Positions 1 to 13,202 of a stretch of 25,034 nucleotides of DNA are shown piece by piece. The stretch is from the IMG/VR virus record IMGVR_UViG_3300027801_000152, positions 1 through 25,034 of that record. One strand, written 5' to 3'. The stretch comes from a virus. The position numbers were made by a program, and so were the translations under genes. The notes under the pieces are model-generated. The model searched no databases. It was not told where the DNA came from and worked only from the letters and a program-made list of their open reading frames with translations. Every line of letters begins with the position of its first letter. Positions within the stretch are counted from its first letter, which is position 1.

Positions 1-1265
1 AGAACATTCATTTTATTTAATTCTGCTGCTCCACCGATTTGTGATACAACATCTTTTGCAGCTCCTGCAATATCACCCTCAAGTGCAAGTTGTCTTGCTT
101 TATTGAAGTTTAATTGTTTACCAATCATCATCGAAGCTTCCATTTCTTTTTCTATGGAAGATTCGAAATCTAATAATGAATTAGCAATCTTTGCAGTAGA
201 ACCTAAACTCATACCGAGTTTTCGAGCTTGAACTGCTGCCATTGCAAGGTTTTTACCACCATCTTTTGCGAAATCTGCAAATACCTCTGTGTTGGATGCT
301 AAATCTGCTATTACATCTCCAGGTCTTAAATCATTTGCCTGAGCAAGTTCACCAGTCATTTTCTGAAAGTTTAATGATGCATCATATGATGAACCAGTCA
401 AACTCATAAATTCTTTTGATAGTTTTATACTATCCTCGACCGTTATACCTAACAATCTCTTTTGTTTACCCAACGAAATCATATTCTCTTTGGTTGCTAA
501 ACTAACATCACCAAACGCATCCCCATATAATTTTGTTGTTGATGCGACCTCAACACCTAATAATTTTAATGTAGCGAGTGCAGCAGGGTCTGCAAATGCT
601 TTAGTTATTTTGATTGTTTGAGAAGCGGATGTACCGATTGAATCTTGTAAATCAATACCAAATGTAACTGCTTTCTTTAATGCCATTGCCATTGCTACAA
701 CTCCTGCGAGTAATAACAAATATGGATTTGCCAATAGTGCTTTACCAAATAGTACTGCTTGAGCATACATACCTTTCATAGCTGATTCACTCAGATTAAG
801 TGTACCTAATAATTTCTCTGTAAGTTGATGTTGTGCTTGAACCTTTGAAACCATACCCTCTTGCCTACTAAAAATACCTTTAGTCATTTTAAGTTCATCA
901 CCAAGTAATTTTGCTTTTTTCAAAGCATCTTTTGTACCTATGGTTTGTAGCTTTCTAATTTGGTCTGCTGATTTTGCTATCTGCTTTTTATGTGCAGCAA
1001 TATCAAAGTTTAATGCGGATTCTTTATCTGTAATTGAGAGTAATTCTTCTTGAGTATCATATATACCTTGAGCAATCTTTAATTCTTTCTTTCTAGTCTC
1101 AAAACCTATTTTTAACTGATTTATTCTTTGTTTTTGGTGTTCGGATGCTTTGCCTTCTTGCTCAGAAATTGTCTTAGCATAAGATGCTATTATTTTCTTG
1201 AGTTTTTCTTGTTTTTCTGTTAAGTCGAGAATCGCTTCAGCATTCTCTATAGCCCGATTAGCCAT
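1..1265 (-). CDS. Tail tape measure protein, N-terminal part (cut by window edge)
   Basis: The reading frame opens at an ATG at 1265 and stays open to base 1, giving 421 complete codons of a longer protein. Residues 1-150 are rich in Lys, Glu and Gln and look coiled-coil. A strongly hydrophobic segment at about 175-196 follows. The rest is Ala/Leu/Lys-rich helical sequence with stretches such as LALEGDIAGAAKDVVSQIGG near the cut, typical of tape measure proteins of marine myoviruses. The tape measure sets tail length and fills the tube before DNA ejection. Its place directly after tube and tail-chaperone genes supports the call. A Shine-Dalgarno-like AGGGA precedes the start, and the gap to the previous gene is only 13 bases. 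Family assignment is by sequence character and gene order; the C-terminal part is not visible. Confidence 0.8.
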   Translation of the reverse strand, partial: MANRAIENAEAILDLTEKQEKLKKIIASYAKTISEQEGKASEHQKQRINQLKIGFETRKKELKIAQGIYDTQEELLSITDKESALNFDIAAHKKQIAKSADQIRKLQTIGTKDALKKAKLLGDELKMTKGIFSRQEGMVSKVQAQHQLTEKLLGTLNLSESAMKGMYAQAVLFGKALLANPYLLLLAGVVAMAMALKKAVTFGIDLQDSIGTSASQTIKITKAFADPAALATLKLLGVEVASTTKLYGDAFGDVSLATKENMISLGKQKRLLGITVEDSIKLSKEFMSLTGSSYDASLNFQKMTGELAQANDLRPGDVIADLASNTEVFADFAKDGGKNLAMAAVQARKLGMSLGSTAKIANSLLDFESSIEKEMEASMMIGKQLNFNKARQLALEGDIAGAAKDVVSQIGGAAELNKMNV

Positions 1266-1278
1266 TCCTATTCCCTAT

Positions 1279-1491
1279 TTAGAATCCTAGCTCTTTATCA
1301 TACTTTGTGTATTTTGCTGGATTCTTTTTAAAATCCGTTATGAAATCTGCAACATCTTTATTACCTTTATCGATAATTTTTTGAATTTTCTTATCACTAA
1401 GTCTTTGAATGTCTCGTTTCAAGCGAGCAAAGAAACCCTCTAACAATCCTGCTTCGTGTAATTTCTTTAATTGTGATTCTTTTATTCTCAT
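1279..1491 (-). CDS. Small basic protein between tail chaperone and tape measure
   Basis: A 70-residue Lys-rich, probably helical protein beginning MRIKESQLKKLHEAG. I chose the ATG at 1491 because AAGGA lies seven bases upstream; the frame is open further up to a TTG at 1518, but that has no good ribosome binding site and overlaps a conserved promoter-like motif. There are no Cys motifs or membrane segments. It sits between the frameshifted chaperone and the tape measure, so it is probably co-expressed with them and may act in tail assembly. I do not recognise a family. The LHE/A near residue 13 resembles a prohead-protease site, but the tail position argues against processing. Confidence 0.7.
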   Translation of the reverse strand: MRIKESQLKKLHEAGLLEGFFARLKRDIQRLSDKKIQKIIDKGNKDVADFITDFKKNPAKYTKYDKELGF

Positions 1492-1518
1492 TGATTTATC
1501 CTTGTGTGATATTACCAA

Positions 1519-1530
1519 TAATAAATATCA
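1519..1530 (-). promoter_or_regulatory. Conserved intergenic 12-mer, candidate late promoter (copy 1)
   Basis: Plus-strand TAATAAATATCA, read as TGATATTTATTA in gene direction. It lies five bases after the frameshift ORF stop and 27 bases before the ATG at 1491. Identical copies lie upstream of three other minus-strand genes. Promoter function is inferred from position only. Confidence 0.45.
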
Positions 1531-1535
1531 AGTTT

Positions 1536-1733
1536 CTATTTTTTTGGTGTAGATTGACGGCGAGATTTCATATCATCGTTTTCTTTTTTACGAGAGTCAA
1601 TCATCTTGTTCATGTAGTATGTTCTAAGATGGATGGGCATATGATACAACTCGGTGAAAGTGAATCCTTCTCCGTGAAATACCATTGAAAATATTTGGTC
1701 GTGAAGTGTCTGTTTATAGTTCGGACTCAGGCC
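1536..1733 (-). CDS. Frameshifted C-terminal extension of the gp26-like tail assembly chaperone
   Basis: In the +1 (equivalently -2) frame relative to the preceding gene, 65 codons run open from the end of a seven-T tract (sense strand) to a TAG at 1536. The product starts GLSPNYKQTLHDQIFSMVFH and continues with GFTFTELYHMPIHLRTYYM, a compact motif-rich sequence that looks like real protein, not an antisense shadow. The only internal ATG of note (1685) has no Shine-Dalgarno, so independent initiation is unlikely. A slip on TTT TTT T would join residue 251 of the upstream protein to this segment, giving a product of about 316 residues. Short and long forms of a tail assembly chaperone made by programmed frameshift just before the tape measure are a known feature of long-tailed phages. 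The slip itself is inferred. Confidence 0.7.
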   Translation of the reverse strand, partial: GLSPNYKQTLHDQIFSMVFHGEGFTFTELYHMPIHLRTYYMNKMIDSRKKENDDMKSRRQSTPKK

Positions 1734-2487
1734 AAAAAAATCGTATCCCTATAGGTATATTTACCTTATGGGATTCTCCTATTTGACTTGTATATTCTGC
1801 TTCAAATTTAATATCTGGTTGGATGTCTACTAAATGTGCACGAAATTCTCGGGTATCTCTAGCAAGAAACTGATTATCTACAAAGTCATTAATCTTTGTT
1901 CTATCGGTTTCACCATCTACTGAAATAAGTTGTTTCTTCAATCGTGTAGTTAACTCATTGGAAACTCCAGTTGCTTGAGTTATTTTCTTATAACCCTCAA
2001 CTTCGTTTTCAACTTCCCGTTCACTCTTATGTGTCATTAATTTAAATTCAATCACTCGTTTAGAATGTGGTAATGTAAATTTAAATTTATTTCCATTCTT
2101 AAATAAAGATTCATCAATCTTTTTAGTCTCTAATTTTGTTAAATCAAATGTATGTTCTACTTCAAGACCCGTATCGGGGTCATTTATATTTACTACATAA
2201 TCCTTACCATAACCCAAAACTCTTGTACCCAACATTAGTGCGTTTTTATCCCCCACTAACATATCATCCAATTTTACTTTGGGATTTGCTATTACGGATT
2301 CGAGTAATCTATCAATCACTAATCCCTTTTCAATTAAATTTGAAGAAGTTAGAATATCTTCTTCTCTTGCAGTCATATACTTGACTTCTATTGTTCCACT
2401 ACTTAATGGACTATCCTTTGGATAAAGTAAACCTTTTGAAGGCAGTGATAGTTCTTCAGTAGGAAATGTGTACTGATTATCAGCCAT
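1714..2487 (-). CDS. 26: gp26-like baseplate/tail assembly chaperone protein (0-frame form)
   Basis: A 257-residue protein. The N-terminal signature LPSKGLLYP, then IEVKYMTAREEDILTS and KGLVIDRLLESVI, matches the T4 gp26-like baseplate family (Pfam T4_baseplate) as I know it. T4 gp26 is classed as a baseplate hub assembly factor. Here the gene lies between tube and tape measure, exactly where tail assembly chaperones sit in other long-tailed phages, so that role is more likely. The start is an ATG with AGGAG upstream. The last residues read FFWPESEL, and the two Phe codons fall in a seven-T run where a frameshift would give the longer form. About 75 bases separate it from the membrane protein gene upstream. 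Confidence 0.8.
   Translation of the reverse strand: MADNQYTFPTEELSLPSKGLLYPKDSPLSSGTIEVKYMTAREEDILTSSNLIEKGLVIDRLLESVIANPKVKLDDMLVGDKNALMLGTRVLGYGKDYVVNINDPDTGLEVEHTFDLTKLETKKIDESLFKNGNKFKFTLPHSKRVIEFKLMTHKSEREVENEVEGYKKITQATGVSNELTTRLKKQLISVDGETDRTKINDFVDNQFLARDTREFRAHLVDIQPDIKFEAEYTSQIGESHKVNIPIGIRFFWPESEL
1734..1740 (-). promoter_or_regulatory. Putative slippery site for programmed frameshifting
   Basis: Seven consecutive T residues in the sense strand, read CGA TTT TTT TGG in frame, six codons before the stop. A tRNA-Phe can re-pair perfectly after moving +1 on TTT TTT T; a -2 slip gives the same new frame. The new frame is open for 65 codons, while the -1 frame stops after about three. 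Confidence 0.6.
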
Positions 2488-2560
2488 TATTATTTCTCCT
2501 ATGAAATGTGTTTAAAACCATTATACTTATAACTATTAATTTACTTTCGTAAAATCAAAT

Positions 2561-2785
2561 TTATTTTTTTCCTAATACTTTTTCAGCTCCTGCGATTCCA
2601 AATGAACCTAAAGTGGTGAATAGGAATGAATTGTAAACAACATCGTTGATTACTAAATCTTTACCCATAATACCAGTTACAACATCTGCACCTGCAAATA
2701 ATACCATTACAGCAAACGCACCAAACCCTATGATTGATTTCTCGTTATATGAGTTATCATCTTTAAAAATGTCTTTAAAAGCCAT
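2561..2785 (-). CDS. Small membrane protein between tube and tail chaperone
   Basis: A 74-residue protein. After a charged N-terminus (about 1-16) comes a hydrophobic segment, FGAFAVMVLFAGADVVTGIM (about 21-40), then a short polar turn and a second apolar stretch, YNSFLFTTLGSFGIAGA (about 51-67), ending in KVLGKK. Two membrane helices with charged ends recall small holins or other phage inner-membrane proteins, but nothing identifies a lysis role and no lysis genes are nearby. The start is an ATG with AAGGA eight bases upstream, 18 bases after the tube gene, so it is probably co-transcribed with it. Confidence 0.7.
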   Translation of the reverse strand: MAFKDIFKDDNSYNEKSIIGFGAFAVMVLFAGADVVTGIMGKDLVINDVVYNSFLFTTLGSFGIAGAEKVLGKK

Positions 2786-2803
2786 TGTATTTTCCTTATG
2801 GTT

Positions 2804-3295
2804 TTAGAACGAGAGTACTGCGTAATCGTAACGTAGTGTTAACGATATATCAGCAACATCTGTTCCATTAGCAAAATCTAAATCATTGAAGTTTGCAGTT
2901 TGAATGAAAGCACCATGTAGTACCCATTCTTCAACCTTATCACCGACTGGTCCTAAAAGATTGAAACGAACTTCTTTTTTATAAAAGTCTGCATATCCAT
3001 CGCGACCTGTTACTGATTCGTGATGTAATCTTACCCATTCCATTACTGCTTGTGCACCACTTGGAACGATTGGGTCATATAGAGTTATCTCTAATGGCTC
3101 CCACGTACCTTTACCCTTAACATATCGTTTTACATTGATATGGTTAAGTTCGATTTCTTCAAAAGTAATCTGTGGTCTATTAGCTGTCTTTACGAAATAA
3201 GATGGTATCCCATCAATATACATAATGAACCTATTCTTTGTTTTCGGTTCAAATGCTTTAAAAAAGATTTCATCTGTTGTTAGTATGTCGGCCAT
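2804..3295 (-). CDS. 19: Tail tube protein, gp19-like
   Basis: A 163-residue protein, the same size as T4 gp19 and matching the phage T4 gp19 tube family. It has NRFIMYIDGIPSYFVKTANR near the N-terminus, a basic central strand (HINVKRYVKGKGTWEPLEIT), and a C-terminal LTLRYDYAVL strand. Hexamers of this protein stack to form the inner tube that crosses the host envelope on sheath contraction. The start is an ATG with GGAGA six bases upstream. In T4 the tube gene follows the sheath gene directly; here a plus-strand cassette and a terminator lie between them, and a candidate promoter motif sits about 40 bases before this start. Confidence 0.9.
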   Translation of the reverse strand: MADILTTDEIFFKAFEPKTKNRFIMYIDGIPSYFVKTANRPQITFEEIELNHINVKRYVKGKGTWEPLEITLYDPIVPSGAQAVMEWVRLHHESVTGRDGYADFYKKEVRFNLLGPVGDKVEEWVLHGAFIQTANFNDLDFANGTDVADISLTLRYDYAVLSF

Positions 3296-3335
3296 TGCCT
3301 ATCTCCGTTTAAATTAATGCTGTTTTTTTCTTCGA

Positions 3336-3347
3336 TAATAAATATCA
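3336..3347 (-). promoter_or_regulatory. Conserved intergenic 12-mer, candidate late promoter (copy 2)
   Basis: Exact TAATAAATATCA on the plus strand, 40 bases upstream of the tube ATG. Because a bidirectional terminator separates the tube from the sheath, the tube gene needs its own promoter; this motif is the best candidate seen. Confidence 0.5.
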
Positions 3348-3383
3348 GGTTCTTAAAAAATGTGTAATTTCTTACATCATTCT

Positions 3384-3410
3384 TTGAAGTTTTATTGAAG
3401 TTTTTTGAAA
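3384..3410 (+). repeat. Helically phased TTGAA repeats upstream of promoter
   Basis: TTGAAGTTTT occurs twice with an 11-base period (3384 and 3395), followed by TTGAAA at 3405, just before the -35 box at 3418. The spacing of about one helical turn puts the repeats on one DNA face, as for an activator or operator site or an UP-like element. Binding is inferred. Confidence 0.35.
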
Positions 3411-3417
3411 ATAATCC

Positions 3418-3447
3418 TTGACTTGTATAGTATTTATGTTGTATATT
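3418..3447 (+). promoter_or_regulatory. Sigma70-type promoter P1 of plus-strand cassette
   Basis: TTGACT (3418-3423), an 18-base spacer and TATATT (3442-3447), followed by AAGGTA. It is on the opposite strand to all surrounding tail genes and points at the 29-codon ORF at 3474. It nearly matches P2 in both boxes, in spacing and in flanking bases. Confidence 0.65.
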
Positions 3448-3473
3448 AAGGTATAAGAAATGGAAGATAAATA

Positions 3474-3563
3474 ATGAGTTGTAATAAATGTAAAAAAATA
3501 AAAGCAGTAGTAGTGTATAAGGGTAATAAATATTGTAATTGGTATTGTGCGAAAAAAAAATAA
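3474..3563 (+). CDS. 29-residue putative zinc-binding microprotein
   Basis: The reading frame ATG to TAA encodes 29 residues: MSCNKCKKIKAVVVYKGNKY then CNWYCAKKK. Two Cys pairs, C-x2-C (3 and 6) and C-x3-C (21 and 25), spaced 14 residues apart, form a minimal zinc-knuckle or zinc-ribbon pattern. The rest is strongly basic, which would suit nucleic-acid binding. A weak GGAAG lies about eight bases before the ATG, and promoter P1 is just upstream. At this length an ORF can arise by chance, but the four ordered Cys and the promoter make a real gene plausible. No family is recognised. Confidence 0.5.
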   Translation: MSCNKCKKIKAVVVYKGNKYCNWYCAKKK

Positions 3564-3571
3564 AAAAACAC

Positions 3572-3601
3572 TTGACTTATATGGCGAAATGGCCTTATAT
3601 T
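3572..3601 (+). promoter_or_regulatory. Sigma70-type promoter P2 of plus-strand cassette
   Basis: TTGACT (3572-3577), an 18-base spacer and TATATT (3596-3601), followed by AAGGTA. It shares CTTGACTTrTAT and TATATTAAGGTA with P1, so the two are probably duplicates. It lies 26 bases before the ATG at 3628. Confidence 0.7.
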
Positions 3602-3627
3602 AAGGTAACAAATAAAGGAAATAAAAT

Positions 3628-3876
3628 ATGATTAAGATAAAACAACAAATTAGGGGATTAAATTCACTGTCAGAACTGAATGAATTATCTTCCTATATTA
3701 ATGATTGTAAGACTATGTTGGGAAAATCATCGTTATGTGTTGGAGCTAAGGTTTATGTTGTTCAAAAGACAAAGAAAACTCCTGGTGTCATCACTAAGAT
3801 GAATATTAAAAAGGCTATTGTTGATATGAATGGTAGGTTGTATAATGTTCCTTTTGCTATGTTAGAACTAATGTAA
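3628..3876 (+). CDS. Small phage protein of the plus-strand cassette, unknown function
   Basis: An 82-residue protein, the only solid plus-strand gene in the window. The start is an ATG with AAAGGAA seven bases upstream and promoter P2 close by. The N-terminal third is helical (LNSLSELNELSSYINDCKTM). The C-terminal half, GAKVYVVQKTKKTPGVITKM followed by KKAIVDMNGRLYNVPF, reads as a small beta-barrel of KOW/Tudor-like character, with a basic face that might contact RNA or protein. This fold guess rests only on strand pattern. With its own promoters and terminator in the reverse orientation, it looks like moron cargo: an accessory gene expressed apart from the late structural operon. Confidence 0.75.
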   Translation: MIKIKQQIRGLNSLSELNELSSYINDCKTMLGKSSLCVGAKVYVVQKTKKTPGVITKMNIKKAIVDMNGRLYNVPFAMLELM

Positions 3877-3886
3877 TTATATTAGA

Positions 3887-3987
3887 TTCGTGGGTTGCCG
3901 ATATACTACGATAATTTGGAATCGGTTTGGGTTATGTAGTGTTTCACGAAATTAGAAACAACCCTTGTGAGTTAGGTGGTTAAACTC
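3887..3987 (+). ncRNA. Candidate structured RNA or 3' UTR after the cassette gene
   Basis: No convincing ORF is seen here, but complementary segments are dense. TTCGTG (3887-3892) pairs with CACGAA (3945-3950). CCGAT (3898-3902) pairs with ATCGG (3921-3925). The loop of that hairpin, ATACTAC (3903-3909), pairs with GTAGTGT (3936-3942), which would make a pseudoknot. GGGTTG (3892-3897) can alternatively pair with CAACCC (3959-3964). GAGTT/AACTC (3969-3973, 3983-3987) is a further hairpin. It lies between the ORF stop and the terminator on the same transcript. It could be a stable small RNA or a protective 3' end. No known RNA family was recognised. Confidence 0.35.
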
Positions 3988-4014
3988 TCAAAATTTATTC
4001 ATTGTGACCTCCTA

Positions 4015-4053
4015 AAAAGAAAAACCCACAGTCATTTAAGATTGTGGGTTTTT
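4015..4053. terminator. Bidirectional intrinsic terminator
   Basis: AAAACCCACAGTC (4021-4033) pairs with GATTGTGGGTTTT (4040-4052), a 13-base-pair stem with one G-U pair around the loop ATTTAA. T residues follow on the plus side and A residues precede it, so it can end both the plus-strand cassette transcript and the minus-strand transcript leaving the sheath gene (stop at 4080). Confidence 0.85.
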
Positions 4054-4079
4054 CGTATAAGCTATTTTATAAGTTAAAC

Positions 4080-6419
4080 TTATTCAGGAAATGCTGCACC
4101 TGTTGGTTGAATTACAAAGTCAAGTACAATGAACTCAGCAGTTCGTGTAGGTTGGATAAATATCTGTCCTACTAACTGGTTTCTATCAACAACATCTGGT
4201 GTGTTGTTAGAATCATCCATTACTACTTTAAATGCACTTAAACCACTATTTGATTGAACACTCGCTAAGAAAGGATTAACGATTCCTAAGAATCTATTTC
4301 TTGTTGCGGATGTGTTTTGTTCAAATACTAAGTATCTTGATGAAGAAGCAATGAACTTACGAAGTCTGATTAACAATCTTCGTACATTGATTCTATCAAG
4401 TGCACTTGGTTTACCTTGTAGTGTTTTCTGTCCGAAAACTACAACACCTTGACCTGGGAATGAAGCGATTGGATTCAAACGACCTTCATACAAATCATCT
4501 CGTTCTGTATGTGTTAGTCGTGTTTTTGCTTCCAATACTGAACTCAATCCACCTCTGTTTAAACCAGCAGGAGCAAACCATTCGTGTGCTACACTATCTG
4601 TGAAACTAATCACACCAGGTATCACTACGGAAGGCGGAACCCACATTGGTTTATTCTTTACTGAATCAAGTATCTTGACCCAAGGATAATATACACCAGC
4701 ATAATTCGTATCCAATGTTTTAATATCATTGATTGAATTAGCTACACTTCTACCCCATCTTGAACCATCCATTACATAAAAAGCATCTGCACGAGCTTCT
4801 ACTTTTGATATAGCGTGGTTTGAAACGGAATTGTGATATTCGTGTATAATACCAGGTGTTACAAGTAAGTTAATATCAAACTCATCTGGGTTTGATACAG
4901 CATTAATTGCTCGTTTGTACGCGATTGAACCACTAGCAGTAGTACCACTACAATCTAAACCTTGTTGGTTTGTTGCAGAAATATCATTACCAGTTGCTTT
5001 CAATACAGTCGGGTCATCTCCATCAAATCCATGCTGAAAAGGAATTATAAATTTTCTTTGAGCTTTCGCTGAAAGAGCTAATGTAATTGCCTCTGCTGCT
5101 ACTGATTCTTGGGTATCCCCTATTGTAGTTGCATCCGCGTGTCCTAACATATTCTCTAAACTGAATACTGCATTATTACCAGTACCAGCACTTGCAGGTA
5201 TTGGTGATGTGAATGCTTTATTGTCAGTATTTGAGAAATCCCAACCATAGTACACATTTTGGTCAAATACACCGAGTGTGTTAGTTTGTTGTGAAACAAA
5301 ACTTGCACTTGGGATTTGTGTAGTACCGAGAACTGGGTTAGATGCTGCTGCAAATCCATGTGGTAATAAATCTGATGCTATTCCCTCAAGATTTGAAGAG
5401 TAATCACTTAGATATACATGAACTGATTGATTTGGCCAATCACCATTGTAGGTAAGTTTGCCTTCTGTATCAATTGTTACATATCTATCACCAATTGCTC
5501 TTGGTACAAAGTTTACTGAATCAGGGTCAAAGCTAAGGTTGGTGAACTCTTCAAGAACTTCACCATCATTGTTTTCGCCTGGATTGTTTCTTAATACACG
5601 GAGTGCAAAAGAACCATAATCAGAACCTGGTACATTAGCTGCTGTTGTCAAATCTGCTACTGCAATCTTGAAATCATCATTTACATTCGTACCATGCGAA
5701 CGAGTATTAACTTTAAATAAATTTTTTCTAGCTCCACCACTTAATTGTGATACAATATAAGGTGTTGTTGCTACTTTGTAATCGTGTGTAAAATCATCAC
5801 CAGTTGCAGTTGAAGCTGAGACTAAACTCATACTTACATTAGCATCAAATCCATTACTTGAATGGAATTTTTTAAATGATTTATACACATATACATTTGT
5901 GTTAGTTGTTTGTGGGTCTGTTCCGAATACTTTTTCGATGTAATCATCCGAACCTGTATCAAAACTTATTGTTTTTGCAGATACACTACCTATTGTGATA
6001 GAGCCTCCAGCAAAATCAGCTCCCGCTGCTAAAGATGCACTCGCTGCACCACCTAAATCCAACGTATTACTTAGTCTTGATGGTTTTAAAACTGCTGCAG
6101 TATATGTTCCGAGTGAACTTGATAAGTTAACTCTAACTGCAGAATGTTTATATCCACCGATTCCTAATACACGAACTATGGTGACGGTCGGAGCATTCTT
6201 TATATATTCTTGGACGGTATATGGTACATAAAATCGAGTATCTAAACCACCAAAGATATTTTCAAATTCCGAAAAACTTGTTACTTGTGTTGGTACAAAC
6301 GCCGGACCTTTAACTGTCGGTCCAATGATTGCAGCTCCAATATCAGCAATACCTTGTGGTAGGAAAGATAAATCTTTTTCTCTTGTAAATACACCTGGTG
6401 AGACTATTCTCTCGGCCAT
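4080..6419 (-). CDS. 18: Tail sheath protein, gp18-like
   Basis: A 779-residue protein, longer than T4 gp18 (about 660). The N-terminus, RIVSPGVFTREKDLS, is the usual sheath opening that threads into neighbouring subunits. Residues about 20-85 carry GPTVKGPAFVPTQVTSFSEF and YVPYTVQEYIKN, also typical. The C-terminal third holds the conserved core, including SLRRGG-like GLNRGGLSSV, RRLLIRLRKFIASSS and the final TRTAEFIVLDFVIQPTGAAF. The middle (about 110-500) is a Ser/Thr/Asn-rich variable insert that probably forms outward domains and explains the extra length. The protein polymerises around the tube and contracts to drive infection. The start is an ATG with AGGAG upstream. The gene is followed by the bidirectional terminator. 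Confidence 0.93.
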   Translation of the reverse strand: MAERIVSPGVFTREKDLSFLPQGIADIGAAIIGPTVKGPAFVPTQVTSFSEFENIFGGLDTRFYVPYTVQEYIKNAPTVTIVRVLGIGGYKHSAVRVNLSSSLGTYTAAVLKPSRLSNTLDLGGAASASLAAGADFAGGSITIGSVSAKTISFDTGSDDYIEKVFGTDPQTTNTNVYVYKSFKKFHSSNGFDANVSMSLVSASTATGDDFTHDYKVATTPYIVSQLSGGARKNLFKVNTRSHGTNVNDDFKIAVADLTTAANVPGSDYGSFALRVLRNNPGENNDGEVLEEFTNLSFDPDSVNFVPRAIGDRYVTIDTEGKLTYNGDWPNQSVHVYLSDYSSNLEGIASDLLPHGFAAASNPVLGTTQIPSASFVSQQTNTLGVFDQNVYYGWDFSNTDNKAFTSPIPASAGTGNNAVFSLENMLGHADATTIGDTQESVAAEAITLALSAKAQRKFIIPFQHGFDGDDPTVLKATGNDISATNQQGLDCSGTTASGSIAYKRAINAVSNPDEFDINLLVTPGIIHEYHNSVSNHAISKVEARADAFYVMDGSRWGRSVANSINDIKTLDTNYAGVYYPWVKILDSVKNKPMWVPPSVVIPGVISFTDSVAHEWFAPAGLNRGGLSSVLEAKTRLTHTERDDLYEGRLNPIASFPGQGVVVFGQKTLQGKPSALDRINVRRLLIRLRKFIASSSRYLVFEQNTSATRNRFLGIVNPFLASVQSNSGLSAFKVVMDDSNNTPDVVDRNQLVGQIFIQPTRTAEFIVLDFVIQPTGAAFPE

Positions 6420-6518
6420 TGTTATTCTCCTATTTATTGATTATTTGTCATAGATAAAACTATACACTATATAAGTATAAAGCTAAATCACCAAACGATA
6501 TCAGCTTAGAGAAATTTC

Positions 6519-6818
6519 TTAACTATTCGGTGTAAATTCACCAGTACCAATATCTAAATTACCAGCACCATACTTGTCGTTAAGTTCTTTTACTAACTTT
6601 TGTTCATTTTGTTGATTTTCAGCATATCTGGTTTCTAATTCTATTTCAGTTTGTTCTAAACCATCCAGTTGTTGCTGTAATAATATTTTACGAACTTTAA
6701 TAACACCAAAATCACTTTGTATGGTATTGTATGAAGTACGTAAAGTTTCAAGGGATTTTAACTCATCCTCTGAAAATACTATTTTTGTTTTATCCACTTT
6801 TGTTTGCTTTTCAGCCAT
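6519..6818 (-). CDS. Small coiled-coil protein upstream of the sheath gene
   Basis: A 99-residue protein dominated by a heptad-like helix from about residue 17 to 80, rich in Gln, Glu, Leu and Lys, ending in the short tail YGAGNLDIGTGEFTPNS. Small coiled-coil proteins ending in a similar GEFTP stretch occur beside structural genes in T4-like marine phages, to my recollection; no function is established that I know of. The start is an ATG with AGGAG upstream. A relaxed version of the candidate late-promoter motif lies 36 bases before it. It may be a structural or assembly helper, but this is a guess from position. Confidence 0.75.
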   Translation of the reverse strand: MAEKQTKVDKTKIVFSEDELKSLETLRTSYNTIQSDFGVIKVRKILLQQQLDGLEQTEIELETRYAENQQNEQKLVKELNDKYGAGNLDIGTGEFTPNS

Positions 6819-6854
6819 ATCATAACTCCTTTATAATAATGTTTATTCGGTTGT

Positions 6855-6866
6855 ATATAAATATAA
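6855..6866 (-). promoter_or_regulatory. Relaxed copy of the candidate late-promoter motif
   Basis: Plus-strand ATATAAATATAA shares the core ATAAATAT with the four exact 12-mers and lies 36 bases before the ATG at 6818. It lacks the final TCA. AT-rich intergenic sequence could produce this by chance. Confidence 0.3.
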
Positions 6867-6907
6867 TTGTATAACTTGAAAACGATTTATTTATTCGCTC
6901 ATTTTAA

Positions 6908-7360
6908 TTAAATTTTTTCTATAGAGCTATTTTTTTCTTCCAAGAGATTTTGGAGATGGTCGACCTTTTGGTTTAATTCCTTGATTCCCTCAACTAATAA
7001 TGGAATTATCTTATGATACTGAACACCCTTGTAACCAGTATCTCGGTCATTGACTGCAGATGGTAAAATGGCCTCAATTTCTTGAGCAATAACTCCAACA
7101 TCGTGACCTGAATAAATATCTTGTTTTTTATTCCAGTCAAATTCATAACCACCAATTTTCTGCAACTTCTCTAATGAGTTACCTATATATGTTATATTAT
7201 CTTTTAAATTTTTGTCGGATGAATTGTAAGCAATGATATCACCACTAGCTCGTATGGTTGAACCACTTATATCAGATTCAGTCCATATAACTCCAGATGC
7301 AGTTACTTCATTTAGGTGGGCACTTGAACCCGATACTACTACTTTTTTCCAATTTGGCAT
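6908..7360 (-). CDS. Short tail fibre protein with S74 intramolecular chaperone domain
   Basis: A 150-residue protein. The N-terminus, WKKVVVSGSSAHLNEVTASG, matches the start of the large fibre protein encoded at 7749-9590 and probably anchors both to the same site. Residues 47-56, SSDKNLKDNI, are the peptidase S74 autocleavage motif, with Ser48 and Lys53 spaced as in the known Ser-Lys dyad. GVIAQEIEAILP (89-100) and YHKIIPLLVEGIKEL (115-129) complete the domain, followed by a C-terminal coiled coil. In this family the domain trimerises, helps the fibre fold and then cleaves itself off. With only about 45 residues before the cut, the mature fibre piece would be very short. The start is an ATG with AAGGAG upstream. 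Confidence 0.88.
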   Translation of the reverse strand: MPNWKKVVVSGSSAHLNEVTASGVIWTESDISGSTIRASGDIIAYNSSDKNLKDNITYIGNSLEKLQKIGGYEFDWNKKQDIYSGHDVGVIAQEIEAILPSAVNDRDTGYKGVQYHKIIPLLVEGIKELNQKVDHLQNLLEEKNSSIEKI

Positions 7361-7433
7361 TTAATTCATTCTCCTTATGGTTGGTTACCTTTCGGCCCAC
7401 TTCCCAATGTCGCCAAACATCAGGCCAATAAAG

Positions 7434-7724
7434 TTATTCTTCAATAAAAAGTTCACCATCTTGCTCTTTAATTTCGTGTTGAACTCTTTCTATATTCTCT
7501 CTTACTACATCTTTAGTACTTTTAGTTGTCTTAACTACAGCACCTTTTCTATCTATCAATTGGTATTGTGATTTTAATTTATTAATCACATCCATTGCAA
7601 GACCAATATGTTTACCTGGAATCATTCCATTTTTAATCAATTCGAATAAAAATTCAATTTCATCCTTTTTAAACTTTGCTACTTCATTAACAATAGTTTT
7701 TACTTCTTTCGCTCTTATCGCCAT
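7434..7724 (-). CDS. Small acidic-tailed protein between two fibre genes, unknown
   Basis: A 96-residue protein with a helical N-terminal half (KEVKTIVNEVAKFKKDEIEF, then FELIKNGMIPGKHIGLAMDV) and a Lys/Glu-rich second half ending EQDGELFIEE. It has no Cys motifs, signal peptide or membrane segment. It sits between the S74 fibre gene and the large fibre gene, a position where phages often keep fibre assembly chaperones; that role is inferred from location only. No family is recognised. Confidence 0.65.
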   Translation of the reverse strand: MAIRAKEVKTIVNEVAKFKKDEIEFLFELIKNGMIPGKHIGLAMDVINKLKSQYQLIDRKGAVVKTTKSTKDVVRENIERVQHEIKEQDGELFIEE

Positions 7725-7748
7725 ATAACCTCTTTTATTTATTATTTA

Positions 7749-9590
7749 TTAACTATAAATCCAAATCTCACCATCATTAGTGTTGACATGCATCATTCCA
7801 ATTCTATCTCCTGCTGCTGTTCCAAAATCTGATGGAGTAGCACCTGGTGATGTTGCAGAACCACTAACCGAAACAACATATTGTCTTGGTACGATTGCTG
7901 TAGCATCGTGAGCAGTATCATCTTCTTTGGTTAATCCCCATCTCTTAACACTATCATCATATCCAAGTGCAGTACCGATACCATTTGCACCAGTTCCAAT
8001 TATTAAACCACCATCTCCACTTGTTGAACCACTTGAAGCGTAGATAAATCTATCTGCAACTCTCAAGTTTGTACTATCGATTGTTGTTAAATCTCCATTA
8101 ACATCCAAGTTACCACTAATAGTAACTGCACCAGTTATATCTACACCCGTCGCAGTTACACTATGAATTTCTGAATTATTAATCTTAGTATTAACCTCAT
8201 TAGCAGTTGAGAAATCAACATACTCTTGTGATGCTGCTGAACCAACTTTTAAAGCCGTATTGTATATCGAAGTAATCGTTGTTTGTGCTGCAGTGATTGC
8301 AATATCATTTGCATTTGCAGTTATACCATCTCCACCAGCTACGTTTAAAGTTCTTGTTGCGGCTATTGTTCCACCACCAGTTAATCCAGTTCCTGCAGTT
8401 ATCGTTACTCCACTATGGTCTATGTGTTCGTTTGCTACAAATCCACTTAAATTATCGTGAACAATCTCACCATCTGTGGTTGTTATTTCATCGGCGTTTG
8501 CAGTTATACCTGTTCCACCAACAACATTGATAGTTCTGTTAGCTGCGATTGTTCCACCACCTGTTAATCCGGCACCTGCTACAACACTTACTGAACTATG
8601 GTCTATATGTTCATTTGCTACAAAATTTGCTAAACTATCGTGGTCAATAGTTCCTTGCGTTGCTGTTGCGATAGTTCCGTTTATATTACCAGTAACTTTA
8701 AAGTTACCACCACTACCACTTATATAGCTTGTAGTATCTCCTACCCATAAATCTGCAGAACCACTAATCAATGAACCGAAACTTACAGCATCTGTAGTTC
8801 CAACTCCGATTGAAGTTCTTAATGTTGCTCCACTTTCTGCTACTGGGTCACCACTACCATCACCAACAATCATTTGGGAATCTGAAAGAACACCCATTGC
8901 TGTGATTGCACCAGTTCCACTACCTAATAGAACTCCACCATCTGTTAATGTTGAGGCACCTGTTCCACCATCTGCCACTGGGACATCAGTTCCACCAGCA
9001 CGATAAACAACATTACCCTCAATATTTAAATTTCCTGCACTTGCTCTTGTAATTGTTGTATCACTACCATGTCCTAATTCTATACCTGTAAATTGGGGGG
9101 AAGCATCACTTGTAACATCTTGGTTAATTGTAGAATTTGCTTCAATGGTTATTGTTTTCACACCATCAACTCTGTTCTGTCCAATCGTAGTACCATAAAC
9201 TGCAGAACCACTAATAGTTCCTGTATATGTTCCCGTAGCACCACTAATAGTTCCAGTCGTAGTTATTGCTCCACTACCAACATCAATGGAAGTGAATCCG
9301 CTTGTAATGCTACCCGCATCCAAAGCTCCGACTGTAGTTAGGTTACTTAATGTATCAATAGCGGATTCTATAGTTGCTTCCGTTGTTGCGTCAATTGCAT
9401 CTATATTATTCAAGGAAGTGGTATTACCACCAGAAAATATACTCGTTGTTCCGAGTACAATATCTCCACCAGCGACTGTTAAATCACCGATTGTTTTTAC
9501 GTTCCCTGTAGCATATATATCAGATGATGCACTCACCACCGAAAATTCTGGTGATGAACCTGATACTACTACTTTTCTCCATTGTGCCAT
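7749..9590 (-). CDS. Large fibre/adhesin-like virion protein with tandem repeats
   Basis: A 613-residue protein, very rich in Gly, Ser, Thr and Ala, with beta-strand repeats typical of trimeric phage fibres. It begins WRKVVVSGSSPEF, an N-terminal tag shared with the short S74 fibre. A 61-residue unit occurs twice in tandem at 317-377 and 378-438, each with FVANEHIDHS and GLTGGGTIAA followed by GITANA. Around 205-265 is a GG-rich stretch ending SGATLRTSIGVG. The C-terminal part, from about 495 (AVTISGNLDVNGDLTTIDST), resembles a structural repeat common in marine phage fibres. It probably contributes to host binding or particle decoration. The start is an ATG with AGGAG upstream. No enzymatic motif is seen. 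Confidence 0.8.
   Translation of the reverse strand: MAQWRKVVVSGSSPEFSVVSASSDIYATGNVKTIGDLTVAGGDIVLGTTSIFSGGNTTSLNNIDAIDATTEATIESAIDTLSNLTTVGALDAGSITSGFTSIDVGSGAITTTGTISGATGTYTGTISGSAVYGTTIGQNRVDGVKTITIEANSTINQDVTSDASPQFTGIELGHGSDTTITRASAGNLNIEGNVVYRAGGTDVPVADGGTGASTLTDGGVLLGSGTGAITAMGVLSDSQMIVGDGSGDPVAESGATLRTSIGVGTTDAVSFGSLISGSADLWVGDTTSYISGSGGNFKVTGNINGTIATATQGTIDHDSLANFVANEHIDHSSVSVVAGAGLTGGGTIAANRTINVVGGTGITANADEITTTDGEIVHDNLSGFVANEHIDHSGVTITAGTGLTGGGTIAATRTLNVAGGDGITANANDIAITAAQTTITSIYNTALKVGSAASQEYVDFSTANEVNTKINNSEIHSVTATGVDITGAVTISGNLDVNGDLTTIDSTNLRVADRFIYASSGSTSGDGGLIIGTGANGIGTALGYDDSVKRWGLTKEDDTAHDATAIVPRQYVVSVSGSATSPGATPSDFGTAAGDRIGMMHVNTNDGEIWIYS
8277..8642 (-). repeat. Tandem 61-residue coding repeat, two copies
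   Basis: Two adjacent 183-base units, 8460-8642 and 8277-8459, encode 61-residue repeats beginning HDSLANFVANEHIDHS and HDNLSGFVANEHIDHS. They are similar but not identical, so the duplication is not recent or is under selection. Such units can expand or contract by recombination and so change fibre length. Confidence 0.85.
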
Positions 9591-9622
9591 GTTGTTCTCC
9601 TAATTGGACTTTTAATTATCAA

Positions 9623-9634
9623 TTATAAATATTA
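9623..9634 (-). promoter_or_regulatory. Relaxed copy of the candidate late-promoter motif
   Basis: Plus-strand TTATAAATATTA overlaps the stop codon of the upstream fibre gene and lies 32 bases before the ATG at 9590. It shares the core ATAAATAT with the exact copies. Confidence 0.3.
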
Positions 9635-10759
9635 GATTGGTGAGTTTTCGTACCCTAAATACCATACTGAACTACTATAATACATTCCACCCTTTTGTGG
9701 TGTCGGTGTTGAAGTAGATTCCCCCAATATTATTACTTTATTATCTATCTGTATAGATATTTCATCACTACTATTTTTTAGTGTGAATAAATTGTCTGGG
9801 TTGTTAGCCCTAAACTCGAAGTTAGAACCAGTAACTTGTAAACCTGTTGCTGCTCCACTACCACTCGTATTTAATGATACCCCATTATAAGTAAACCCAT
9901 CGGATAAACTTAATGTATCTATATTTGCTGTACCATCTAAGTGTAAATCTTTCCATTGGAAGGTTGCACTCCCCAAATCCATAATATCATCTGCGGTAGG
10001 TGTAAGTGAACCACTAATACTAACACTACCTGTAAATTGATGTGTATCATCTAAACTATCACCGAACCTTGTTGAACCACTTATCTCCTGCGTGGTTATA
10101 TTCGTAACCGATGAACTTACTATAAAATTATTTGCAGTTATATCACCTTGTATGTTTAATCCAGTTGCAAGTGTTGTACCAACATATTGACAAACACTCA
10201 TATAAACTATAGCATTTGAACTTCTTGCAGTATCAAATTGTAATACACCAGTTTTATAATCAAACTGATAATCATTACCTGATATAACATCATCCCCATC
10301 TAATGAACCACTATTAGTTCCTGTTGATGAATATACTCTAACTCCATATCCAGGTGTTGTATCTTCTGTATTAGCATTTGCTAATGAAGCAATTGAATAT
10401 TTTGGTGATATGAAATTTGTTTGTTGGCCAGTTTGTATTAACTGCGGGGTTACCCCACTTGCACTACCTGTCGGTGAAATAAAGAACCAAGCATCCTCAT
10501 CAACATTAGATTTAGTTAACCTAAACCTATACCAATATTTTAATACATCATTACTATTAACTTGAAACGTAGTTCCACTCTGAGAACTTCCACTAAATGG
10601 TAATCCACTTGATGGTATTAAATTGGCTTGAGTATAAATCTCGGATGCACCTAAATCCAATACCTCTGTAAATGCTTCTTGTGAAGTATTTAAATCAGCA
10701 CTCGTAAATCTTCTACCACCGAGTAATCTATTTGATTTTTTTTCGTTATTAATTGCCAT
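9632..10759 (-). CDS. Fibre-like virion protein with shared GDSLDD module
   Basis: A 375-residue protein. The basic N-terminus (NEKKSNRLLGGRRFTSADLN) may dock it to the particle. A beta-rich domain follows, including VLKYWYRFRLTKSNVDEDAW (about 72-91). Residues 227-252, GSTRFGDSLDDTHQFTGSVS followed by ISGSL, form a module also found in the two gene products at 13510-14355 and 14364-16055. The C-terminus includes DLGSATFQWKDLHLDGTANI, a pattern I associate with phage fibre repeats, and ends with a compact aromatic tip (MYYSSSVWYLGYENS). It is probably part of a surface appendage; receptor specificity cannot be read. The start is an ATG with AGAGA upstream. Confidence 0.75.
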   Translation of the reverse strand: MAINNEKKSNRLLGGRRFTSADLNTSQEAFTEVLDLGASEIYTQANLIPSSGLPFSGSSQSGTTFQVNSNDVLKYWYRFRLTKSNVDEDAWFFISPTGSASGVTPQLIQTGQQTNFISPKYSIASLANANTEDTTPGYGVRVYSSTGTNSGSLDGDDVISGNDYQFDYKTGVLQFDTARSSNAIVYMSVCQYVGTTLATGLNIQGDITANNFIVSSSVTNITTQEISGSTRFGDSLDDTHQFTGSVSISGSLTPTADDIMDLGSATFQWKDLHLDGTANIDTLSLSDGFTYNGVSLNTSGSGAATGLQVTGSNFEFRANNPDNLFTLKNSSDEISIQIDNKVIILGESTSTPTPQKGGMYYSSSVWYLGYENSPI

Positions 10760-10769
10760 AATTTATCTC

Positions 10770-13202
10770 TTAACTAAATGTCACTGCTATTGAAGTTACT
10801 GGTGTTTCATCACCTTTATATCTAACTATTACATAAAGTTCATTATCACTTGAATCTAAGTACATTCCATCCGCATTTCTCATTGGGACAGTATAAGTGG
10901 TTGTGGATATACTACCACCAGTGTTCCCATACAAATCTATATCAGAACTGAATGGATTAATATGGTTATCCGTTGATACTCCTGCAGATATCAAGTTACT
11001 TGTAGTTGCACTTGGGTCATATAGTCTACAATTTGTAATTGATGTATTACTTCCTGCACTTGTACCACTCTTTAATATCAATCCAACTGCCGTACCTGTT
11101 GATGTAGAGTTCCAATTCACTAATGTTTTACCTGTATTGATGGTCATACTTGTTCTTGCACTTCCATCTTGGAATCTTCGTATATAATATTTGTATGTTC
11201 CATGGTCATTATAATCCTCATAATACCAATATCTATAATCTCCACCTGGGTCTACCAAATATCCCGGTTTCACTTGTAAATCATAAGAACCCAACTGATT
11301 GATTGCATATGTAGTAACCCAAGCAGTACCATTAAATGCTGTAACATTATCTAATAATTGTATTCTAAAATCTTCTCCTGTAAATGTTTCACTCGTTCCA
11401 GTCAAACTTCCACCATCATATCCTTGTGCTCTCTGATAGACTCCCAAAGAACCACTACCTGCGGGTTGTCCGAATGTTCCAGCGTTGTGGTAATTGTATG
11501 TATAGGTTGCTAATGTAGATTGAGATGATGCACGATTTCTTGCTCTAACTCCGATTGTAAATGTAGAATCACTTACACCAGTCTGATTTATATTTTCTCC
11601 TGTAGAACCAGCTAAAGTATAAATTGAATTATGTTTATAAACATCTGTTCTTGTTGGTACTACACTCGTACCTCTGACTGTTGGTGAATGACTTGTATCA
11701 CTAAATACTGCATTTGCAGTTTGAATTGTTCCCCCATTCGTACTTAAATCATCTACACCAGATGTTGAACTTACTGAACCAACACCTACTGAACTTATAT
11801 TATCATCAACTATCGTGGTTGATGCTGCGTACATTGGGTTAAATAATCCACTCACCGATGCACTTAAATGATATGTTGAGTTAATTAAATATGGTGCTCC
11901 ACTCAAACTTCTTGATGTAGCACTTACATAACTCTGAGTTGCATGTGATATTGTTAATGAATTAGTTCCGATATCTGTACTTATCTGGTCTATTGGTGCC
12001 CAAAATCTATTTTTAGATGAACCAGCTTTGAAAGTATAATCACCTGAACCAGTTGCAATTCCAACCTTTAACCCATAAAAATTATAGTATCCACTTGATG
12101 ATACACTTGTAAAACTTGTTTCAGTTGCGTGATATTTTCTCAACAAAGTTTTCATACTTGTACCACCTACATCTACAAACTTACCATCTTGATATGCAGC
12201 AGGTATAACTGCGGGATTAGCAGAATCAATTTTTGCTAAAGTCACACCACTTGTTGTTCCAAATGAATCCTGTGTTATATCATATATTGATTGGGTTGTG
12301 TATTTGTTAGATGTATTTGTTGGTGTAGAAATACTACCCGTATCACTAAACGATTGTGTTGCATATACTCTAACTTTAAAATCTGTTACTCCACCACTTG
12401 TTAAACTTCCCAACCCAAATAACTCGGTATCGGATGTGGAATTAATACTCGTTGAACCACCACTATTAGAATCAAAATCTATTTTATATGTATTACCATT
12501 ATCGTGATATGAACTAACCCCACTAAATATTGTACCACCATCTATTACCCACCTTTTTGTATAAAGATATTTCATAGTTGCATTTGAACTATCGTAACTC
12601 TGTGGTAAATATCCATCGACAGTATCTGTGTTACCTAAACTATTTTCAATTGTATCTATACTTGCAAATGTCTTTGTGTTTGGTGTTGGGGATGATGTAT
12701 CTATTGAATGACTAATTATTCCAGCCATAAATCTTAATATTTCACTCACGTGGGTTGTATTATCAAAGTTATTAAAGTAACTTCCATCTAAACTTGTACC
12801 CCAATTATTAGAAGTAGGATACCCAGTTGTTATATTGTTTGTAGTTATTGCAGTTGATGTAGTTACTGCAGTGTTTACACTCATTGAACCAGTAACAACT
12901 AAATCATTGTGTGTGGATTGTATTGAACCTGTTGATGAAAAGATTCCAAGTTGTCCATTTATACCACTTGGTAATATTCCAGTCAATCCACTACCATCAC
13001 CTTCAAATCCAGCACTTGATGTTATTGAACCCGTTATTACTAAACTATTATGTGTGGATTGATAAGAACCAGTCGAAGCAAATATACCAAGTTGTCCATC
13101 AATAGCTTCTGGTGGAATAATTGCAGTACCCGTAAGTGAACCACTTAGAGTAAATGAACCAGTCAATCGTGGATTCAGTTGTTTACTATCTATTAATGCC
13201 AT
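10770..13202 (-). CDS. Large fibre/adhesin-like virion protein
   Basis: An 810-residue protein rich in Ser, Thr, Gly and Tyr. The N-terminus, KQLNPRLTGSFTLSGSLTGT, is followed by an imperfect 47-residue repeat: GQLGIF plus STGSxQSTHN occurs at residues 36-51 and 83-98. The body (about 130-790) is an irregular beta-rich sequence with few charges and many aromatic residues, for example YWYYEDYNDHGTYKYYIRRF (about 660-680), as expected for a receptor-contacting fibre or adhesin. No catalytic motif is recognised. The gene ends ten bases before the next fibre gene and overlaps the end of the small zinc-ribbon gene by 17 bases. It is the largest of the fibre-like set and the best candidate for a main host-recognition protein, by inference. 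Confidence 0.75.
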   Translation of the reverse strand: MALIDSKQLNPRLTGSFTLSGSLTGTAIIPPEAIDGQLGIFASTGSYQSTHNSLVITGSITSSAGFEGDGSGLTGILPSGINGQLGIFSSTGSIQSTHNDLVVTGSMSVNTAVTTSTAITTNNITTGYPTSNNWGTSLDGSYFNNFDNTTHVSEILRFMAGIISHSIDTSSPTPNTKTFASIDTIENSLGNTDTVDGYLPQSYDSSNATMKYLYTKRWVIDGGTIFSGVSSYHDNGNTYKIDFDSNSGGSTSINSTSDTELFGLGSLTSGGVTDFKVRVYATQSFSDTGSISTPTNTSNKYTTQSIYDITQDSFGTTSGVTLAKIDSANPAVIPAAYQDGKFVDVGGTSMKTLLRKYHATETSFTSVSSSGYYNFYGLKVGIATGSGDYTFKAGSSKNRFWAPIDQISTDIGTNSLTISHATQSYVSATSRSLSGAPYLINSTYHLSASVSGLFNPMYAASTTIVDDNISSVGVGSVSSTSGVDDLSTNGGTIQTANAVFSDTSHSPTVRGTSVVPTRTDVYKHNSIYTLAGSTGENINQTGVSDSTFTIGVRARNRASSQSTLATYTYNYHNAGTFGQPAGSGSLGVYQRAQGYDGGSLTGTSETFTGEDFRIQLLDNVTAFNGTAWVTTYAINQLGSYDLQVKPGYLVDPGGDYRYWYYEDYNDHGTYKYYIRRFQDGSARTSMTINTGKTLVNWNSTSTGTAVGLILKSGTSAGSNTSITNCRLYDPSATTSNLISAGVSTDNHINPFSSDIDLYGNTGGSISTTTYTVPMRNADGMYLDSSDNELYVIVRYKGDETPVTSIAVTFS

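Follow-up and report, generated by a model that had tools for sequence, protein, structure and literature searches.

A putative moron-like cassette with a conserved pseudoknot RNA at the sheath-tube junction of an uncultured virus with T4-like tail genes

Morons are a concept from lambdoid phage genomics, and the PeSL (promoter early - stem-loop) cassettes of T4-like phages were reportedly described by Arbiol in 2010 and by Comeau in 2014; to our knowledge, no conserved pseudoknot RNA is on record for PeSLs. The locus described here lies between the tail sheath and tail tube genes of an uncultured virus and resembles a moron in that one or more extra genes, with a promoter and a terminator of their own, separate genes that relatives carry side by side. 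It differs in that the phage is probably lytic and in that the constant element is an RNA. The likeness to PeSL cassettes, which are reported for T4-like phages (PMC4503421), consists of an early-type promoter and a stem-loop terminator that appear to flank small, swappable genes in a T4-like phage, with a mosaic cargo. Unlike a PeSL, the cassette is flanked by two virion genes, to which it runs antiparallel, and contains a conserved pseudoknot RNA. Two known RNA families are also comparable. The last pseudoknot of phage-borne tmRNA (ssrA, RF00023) copies has the form GUGGGUU-stem-GACUAC-N2-AUUUGGA-stem, as does the pseudoknot described here, whereas the cassette RNA of the window lacks both the tRNA-like domain and the tag reading frame and is not matched by the Rfam model. 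The manA RNA (RF01745) is a structured RNA of marine T4-like phages and is found approximately 400-600 nt or more downstream of pseudoknot copies outside the junction; the cassette RNA is a different one, and manA is not present in the sequence analyzed. The kinds of cassette, moron and PeSL, are thus known, and what is new is that the fixed element is an RNA absent from Rfam 15.

The window, that is, the whole stretch of DNA that was analyzed, is the 25,034-base uncultured virus record IMGVR_UViG_3300027801_000152, for which a megablast search of phage records returned no match. The neighbors of the cassette are T4-like tail genes on the minus strand, with a baseplate hub-like gene further out (Table 1). 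The nearest relatives of the sheath protein are those of Microcystis phage Mel-JY01, a 484-kb uncultured phage and the Flavobacterium phages immuto, all at less than 60% identity. An opposite-strand unit with two promoters, two ORFs, a structured tail and a two-way terminator had been described between tube and sheath in an earlier note on this DNA, and every one of these parts is found. The GC skew switches from about -0.1 to +0.3 right at the cassette, and the composition differs from that of the neighbors (GC 0.26-0.30 versus 0.31-0.38, with the skew reversed), a contrast that is partly a consequence of strand and of non-coding DNA. For the tube gene, the candidate late promoter is one of four copies of the TGATATTTATTA motif on the minus strand of the window (1527, 3344, 17748 and 21721), three of which sit 27-49 nt ahead of minus-strand ORF starts. 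A tandem GAAGTTTT-type block at 3386-3411, upstream of this promoter, is conserved whether the junction is empty or occupied. Near the sheath gene, a stand-alone ORF of 150 aa (6908-7360, minus strand) is largely taken up by a Peptidase_S74 endosialidase-type chaperone domain.

Table 1. Features of the cassette and its flanking genes, in window coordinates.
Feature	Position	Strand	Basis or description
Tube gene	2804-3295	-	PHROGs tail tube, 7.1e-29
Candidate late promoter of tube gene, TGATATTTATTA	3333-3344	-	Motif recurrence; putative promoter role
Sigma70-type promoter P1, TTGACT-18-TATATT	3418-3447	+	Sequence pattern; counterpart in L003 and L004
ORF29	3474-3563	+	29 aa, Cys-rich (MSCNKC..CNWYC)
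Sigma70-type promoter P2, TTGACT-18-TATATT	3572-3601	+	Sequence pattern
p82 ORF	3628-3876	+	82 aa
Structured non-coding RNA region	3877-4017	+	Fold energy and homologues; begins at the p82 stop codon
H-type pseudoknot PK-A	3888-3925	+	Compensatory changes and covariance-model match
PK-A stem S1	3888-3893 (UCGUGG) with 3906-3911 (CUACGA)	+	
PK-A stem S2	3898-3902 (CCGAU) with 3921-3925 (AUCGG)	+	
Hairpin B, GGGUU..AACCC around GUUUC..GAAAC	3929-3964	+	Nearly invariant
Hairpin C, UUGUGAGUU..AACUCUCAA, loop AGGUGGUUA	3965-3991	+	Homologue alignment
Bidirectional intrinsic terminator	4019-4054	both	15-bp hairpin; A and T tracts usable either way
Sheath gene	4080-6419	-	PHROGs tail sheath, 1.8e-70

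A general sigma70 scan of positions 1-12000 of this AT-rich DNA gives no enrichment (46 sites found versus 54.6 ± 7.0 in shuffles). The strict pattern TTGAC-N16-19-TAT[AT]TT is present at just two sites in the whole window, counting both strands, and these are P1 and P2; none of 2000 shuffles of the interval contained two strict promoters. This pattern was picked after P1 and P2 had been seen, and the independent support is that it marks the same junction in relatives. The spacer of P2 contains an inverted repeat, GGC-GAAATG-GCC (3583-3594), and GGC-AAAAA-GCC is present at the corresponding place in locus L004. At the other end of the cassette, the hairpin of the terminator was not listed by a simple terminator scan. 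A CCC..GGG hairpin-like pattern follows the sheath stop codon in 92 of the 103 distinct junctions sampled, and the terminator is for this reason probably that of the sheath gene, shared with the cassette. Just ahead of it, CCTCCT at 4008-4013 resembles an anti-SD sequence on the plus strand, and the minus strand reads AGGAGG here, with a four-codon ORF (MNKF) after it. A role of CCUCCU as an anti-SD decoy was considered and rejected, the sequence not being kept in relatives such as L341.

The earlier note had proposed comparing close relatives for presence or absence of the cassette. Relatives were gathered by searches with p82, tube and sheath, the best 80 loci being taken for each at most, and the frequencies given here describe that sample. 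Among the loci listed, the sheath-tube gap is measurable in 156 sequences, 103 of which are distinct. In 72 of these 103 the junction is shorter than 250 bp (median 181.5) and has no strict-type promoter. Among the 31 longer sampled junctions, 22 contain one to three strict promoters, all of which point against sheath and tube, and none of the 103 distinct sampled junctions has a strict promoter on the same strand. Three of the nine longer gaps without a promoter (L130, L134 and L223) hold same-strand ORFs of 137-193 codons. In the isolates, the sheath-tube distance is 94 bp (Mel-JY01) and 45 bp (immuto). The cassette is therefore present in some relatives and absent in others across the 103 sampled junctions, and not common to all, as the gaps of less than 250 bp and the adjacent genes of the isolates indicate. 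By sequence comparison, the space between sheath and tube is an insertion-deletion hot spot, and the cassette has been inserted between two genes that lie next to each other in relatives, with its own promoters and a terminator probably shared with the sheath gene. The proposal that it is a moron holds as far as the insertion polymorphism, the separate promoters, the terminator and the opposite direction are concerned, but the constant part is the RNA and not the ORFs.

The cargo ORFs differ from one promoter-bearing junction to another, and many have a promoter of their own. Where p82 is present, it stands alone, with a 64-aa Cys-rich ORF (L003), with an 81-aa ORF (L001), with ORFs of 74 and 139 aa (L026) or with ORFs of 114, 81 and 74 aa (L004); junctions without p82 carry ORFs of 95-102, 65-74, 90 or 148 aa. 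Ten cargo ORFs were checked, of which one has a clear PHROG match, of unknown function, and none reaches the cut-off of a Pfam family. ORF29 has no family in Pfam or PHROGs. It matches the first half of the 64-aa Cys-rich ORF of L003, and the match ends at the point where the window lacks about 114 bases relative to L003; for this reason, ORF29 is probably a truncated form, possibly a remnant, of that ORF.

The part of the cassette that does not vary is found between the last ORF and the sheath terminator. The fold of positions 3877-4056 has a predicted energy of -51.4 kcal/mol, versus -36.05 ± 4.1 for shuffled sequences (z -3.7), and is better than any of 200 shuffles. Three conserved elements were recognized here in the relatives, namely a pseudoknot unit, hairpin B and a hairpin termed D. 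At least one of the three is present in 21 of the 22 promoter-bearing junctions, L102 being the exception, versus none of the other 81 sampled junctions; the D pattern was derived from these same junctions, which makes its count descriptive, while the pseudoknot pattern was used to fetch other loci and not these 103. Across 29 type-1 RNAs, hairpins B and C hardly vary, which is conservation and not covariation, and 14 type-2 RNAs have another hairpin in place of hairpin C. In 13 sequences of element D, 100% of the cells are paired, with 10 both-side changes versus 3.2 ± 1.3. The loops of the RNA are conserved in sequence. In L026, a promoter is positioned between p82 and the RNA, directly ahead of the latter, and in L091, L100 and L101 little is left except a promoter, an ORF of 2-5 codons, element D and the terminator. 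On the sequence evidence, the constant component of the cassette is a conserved non-coding RNA, around which the ORFs swap freely and may be reduced to as little as two codons.

The pseudoknot motif reads GUGGGUU - stem - GACUAC N2-4 AUUUGGA - stem. S2 closes in the ordinary way, whereas S1 is formed across S2 by GUGG and its 5' neighbors with CUAC and its 3' neighbors. The window contains one match, at 3890, versus 0.07 expected by chance, and a scan of IMG/VR reveals at least 119 stretches with the motif. The fetched loci contain 162 matches, 77 of them distinct: 33 are located in sheath-tube junctions, 10 in tmRNAs and 6 within 600 nt of p82 elsewhere, and 28 are unassigned. The 28 matches without context, of which by eye about nine look like chance and several like tmRNA, were excluded from the alignment A1, and its 49 units were thus chosen by context and not by pairing. 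In these units, 96.5% of the cells are paired, versus 80.6 ± 1.0 when shuffled and 30-47% when slid, and 80 cells are changed on both sides, versus 21.3 ± 3.7 shuffled; the shuffle controls leave sequence relatedness in, and the sliding controls remove it in part. For the junction units alone, the corresponding values are 95.5% paired versus 88.5 ± 0.7 and 32 both-side changes versus 8.8 ± 2.4.

Because the search pattern specifies GUGG and CUAC, four of the S1 pairs had no freedom to vary, and the constancy of the inner S1 pairs therefore proves nothing; the pairing is tested by the outer S1 pair and by S2. The outer pair, which is free in the pattern, takes all four Watson-Crick forms (GC 11, CG 10, UA 10, AU 5, GU 1 and unpaired 12 in the 49 units; CG 10, UA 10, AU 2 and unpaired 11 in the 33 junction units). 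One pair of S1 is a G-U; its complement on the other strand would be a mismatch of C and A, and the plus-strand RNA therefore looks to be the strand that is selected and folded; the invariance of this pair is by construction, but its wobble form is not. The alignment of the full RNA (A3) places CUAC wrongly between the sequence types, and for this reason the pseudoknot was analyzed on the unit alignments A1 and A5 alone. Counting against PK-A, the nested minimum-energy fold contains no pseudoknot and pairs CUAC with a GUAG of hairpin B, and the outer S1 pair fails to form in 12 of the 49 units, among them a third of the junction units.

Comparison of the motif loci with known RNA families reveals the relation to tmRNA. 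Four loci (L228, L269, L255 and L284) match the Rfam tmRNA model above the cut-off, and ARAGORN calls a tmRNA in L254, L255, L246, L312, L318, L337 and L338. In L255, the motif follows the tag part and directly precedes the long helix's 3' strand and the T arm, a position that corresponds to the last pseudoknot. The window RNA aligns over this 3'-side pseudoknot with the motif from 10 tmRNA copies, and the sequence comparison shows that the two are a shared module. The remaining parts of a tmRNA are absent: in the window there is no tRNA-like domain (T arm, acceptor) and no tag frame, and no tmRNA is called. Even at E values up to 5, the window RNA is not matched by the Rfam tmRNA model, and cmscan of the window against Rfam 15 at the gathering score gives no match. 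A permissive cmscan of 3380-4080 gave hits with a best E of 0.63, none of which came near its gathering score, and these were rejected as chance. At the motif loci outside tmRNAs, no other Rfam family covers the motif. Among 14 longer virus records, which are fragments, a tmRNA was found in just two, both picked for a tmRNA-type match. The motif pattern has no match in 84,980 bacterial and archaeal genomes, and a blastn search of the window RNA against 50,697 phage records gives only a 25-base chance match (E 2). In searches of the open-licence PMC literature, none of the papers listed describes this RNA or the junction cassette, as judged from titles and abstract beginnings.

The searches also uncovered tmRNA genes on uncultured marine virus contigs (L254, 8416-8832, minus strand; L255, 11817-12225, minus strand; L228, 1831-2256; L269, 2991-3395, minus strand), with tag ends given by ARAGORN as QPSYSYAA in L254 and QPTYAYA in L255. 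Outside the tail junction, L014 (1040-2017), L048, L250, L328, L340 and L025 contain stretches of several hundred bases that are led by promoters and in which pseudoknots and hairpins form chains, together with tRNA-like T arms; several of these loci also have manA RNAs, of which L014 carries a second, partial one. These stretches are apparently assembled from the same modules as the junction RNA. As a two-piece tmRNA, the RNA of this type gives no tmRNA match by permissive cmscan (L014, 1030-1780) and no ARAGORN call.

An SD-led ORF usually precedes the RNA in the promoter-bearing junctions, with 4-17 nt between its stop codon and the RNA start. This ORF has 82 codons in the window, L001, L003, L004 and L006, 140 in L116, 5 in L091 and L169, 4 in L187 and two in L083, L084, L099, L100, L101, L106, L108, L109 and L112; none is given for L026, L114 and L171. 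The two-codon forms are ATG-TTT-TAA, ATG-AAT-TAA/TAG and GTG-AAT-TAA. An SD followed by start-X-stop is present in 15 of 22 junctions, whereas 200 shuffle rounds gave 2.5 on average and never more than 8; the observed count includes related sequences and two matches (L003 and L114) that are not ahead of the RNA. Owing to this relatedness, the result is a strong hint, but not proof, that the tiny ORFs ahead of the RNA are a real feature. The bar minigenes of phage lambda are two-codon ORFs on short phage transcripts, and the junctions of the D type are similar in having SD-led two-codon ORFs (AUG-UUU-UAA, AUG-AAU-UAA) on short putative transcripts. The window, in contrast, has a full ORF at this place, and the two-codon ORFs of the junctions precede a conserved structured RNA.

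The full ORF of the window encodes p82, for which the predicted fold consists of two helices and a five-strand barrel of the SH3/Tudor/KOW type (model pLDDT 88.5). The model resembles Tudor, PWWP and KOW domains as well as small uncharacterized phage proteins; the matches include the PHF1 Tudor domain (Z 8.8, rmsd 1.3 over 50 residues) and DSIF KOWx-KOW4 (Z 8.1, rmsd 1.1 over 43 residues), Z scores of a size that can mean no more than a common fold. Folds of this type frequently bind nucleic acids or peptides. The protein has 181 relatives, and 16 columns are invariant across 40 homologues. In 84,980 bacterial and archaeal genomes there are two p82 loci, one in a Rickettsiales MAG and one in a Synechococcus MAG, too thin a basis to name a host. 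In pelagiphage HTVC008M, the p82 homologue (L349, 29739-29993) and the next gene run against the surrounding genes. Pseudoknot-driven readthrough of the p82 stop codon was rejected because another in-frame stop follows two codons later (TAA TTA TAT TAG).

The search for p82 loci was made without knowledge of the RNA, and copies with 65% identity or more are termed close. Of the 31 distinct close copies listed, 14 are followed on their own strand by a pseudoknot no more than 600 nt away, six of them in the junction and eight outside. Within the same distance, there is none on the opposite strand (0/31) or upstream (0/27), and 17 of the 31 close and all 19 distant p82 loci listed are without a pseudoknot. 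As the sequences show, p82 travels with the RNA, and p82 may bind it.

The reading that is preferred, with a probability of roughly 0.7, is that of a moron-like (PeSL-like) cassette in the sheath-tube hot spot, which gives rise to a stable pseudoknot RNA and, here, to a small SH3-barrel protein. Host RNA polymerase would transcribe the cassette from the two sigma70-type promoters, against the late genes, and would stop at the two-way terminator of the sheath gene. The constant product would be a structured non-coding RNA with an H-type pseudoknot and two hairpins, and the variable cargo would be small proteins, here p82 as a possible partner of the RNA. Expression would begin at the start of infection, since in related phages promoters of the sigma70 type are regarded as early (Melnitz paper, PMC9004378). 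The RNA would outlast the mRNA and accumulate as a stable 3'-end RNA. The least secure step concerns function: it is possible, although doubtful, that the RNA acts on translation, at the ribosome or at its rescue system. A wider scenario is unlikely, in which marine T4-like phages possess a modular family of early non-coding RNAs put together from tmRNA-type pseudoknots and further hairpins. Tiny obligatory ORFs, at the smallest a start, one codon and a stop, would park a terminating ribosome closely upstream of the RNA, and the RNAs together with p82 would capture or block the rescue or translation machinery of the host.

Several other explanations address the same structured region. It might be a cis-acting 3'-UTR element that stabilizes the cargo mRNA and aids termination without a function of its own, which would agree with an RNA that mostly begins 4-17 nt past a stop codon, runs into the terminator and follows many different ORFs. 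The near-empty cassettes of L091, L100 and L101, the promoter that separates p82 from the RNA in L026, loop sequences conserved beyond the needs of stability and the module common to tmRNA argue against this explanation, which has a limited but real chance of being correct. The near-identical promoters and terminators between which the cargo is shuffled, and the report of PeSLs in T4-like phages (PMC4503421), would also be consistent with a PeSL-type recombination cassette, in which promoter and stem-loops are homology patches for gene shuffling and no RNA product is involved. Homology, however, keeps sequence and not base pairs, whereas here the stems compensate and the loops stay, and this explanation is quite improbable.

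A decayed tmRNA fragment from an old insertion is hardly credible: its pseudoknot would indeed be the one that phage tmRNAs carry towards the 3' side, but no tRNA-like domain or tag is nearby, dozens of junction copies keep their pairs by compensation, and the almost invariant hairpin B is present, among the loci gathered, in junctions and in the context-less L329 and L339, none of which is called a tmRNA. The strong conservation and wide distribution of p82, and the HTVC008M homologue that likewise runs against its neighbors, would instead suit an ordinary moron centered on p82 as an early nucleic-acid-binding host modifier, with the RNA secondary. Most promoter-bearing junctions are without p82 and yet keep the RNA element, which leaves this a minority possibility.

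If the preferred reading of an RNA-bearing, moron-like cassette is true, a gene dedicated to an RNA sits amid the tail operon of a common group of uncultured marine phages, and pseudoknots of the tmRNA type have a second use outside tmRNA. The cassette would then provide an entry to the roles of early phage non-coding RNAs and of tmRNA pseudoknots freed from tmRNA. Additionally, the sheath-tube hot spot would be a simple address for mining new small early phage genes.
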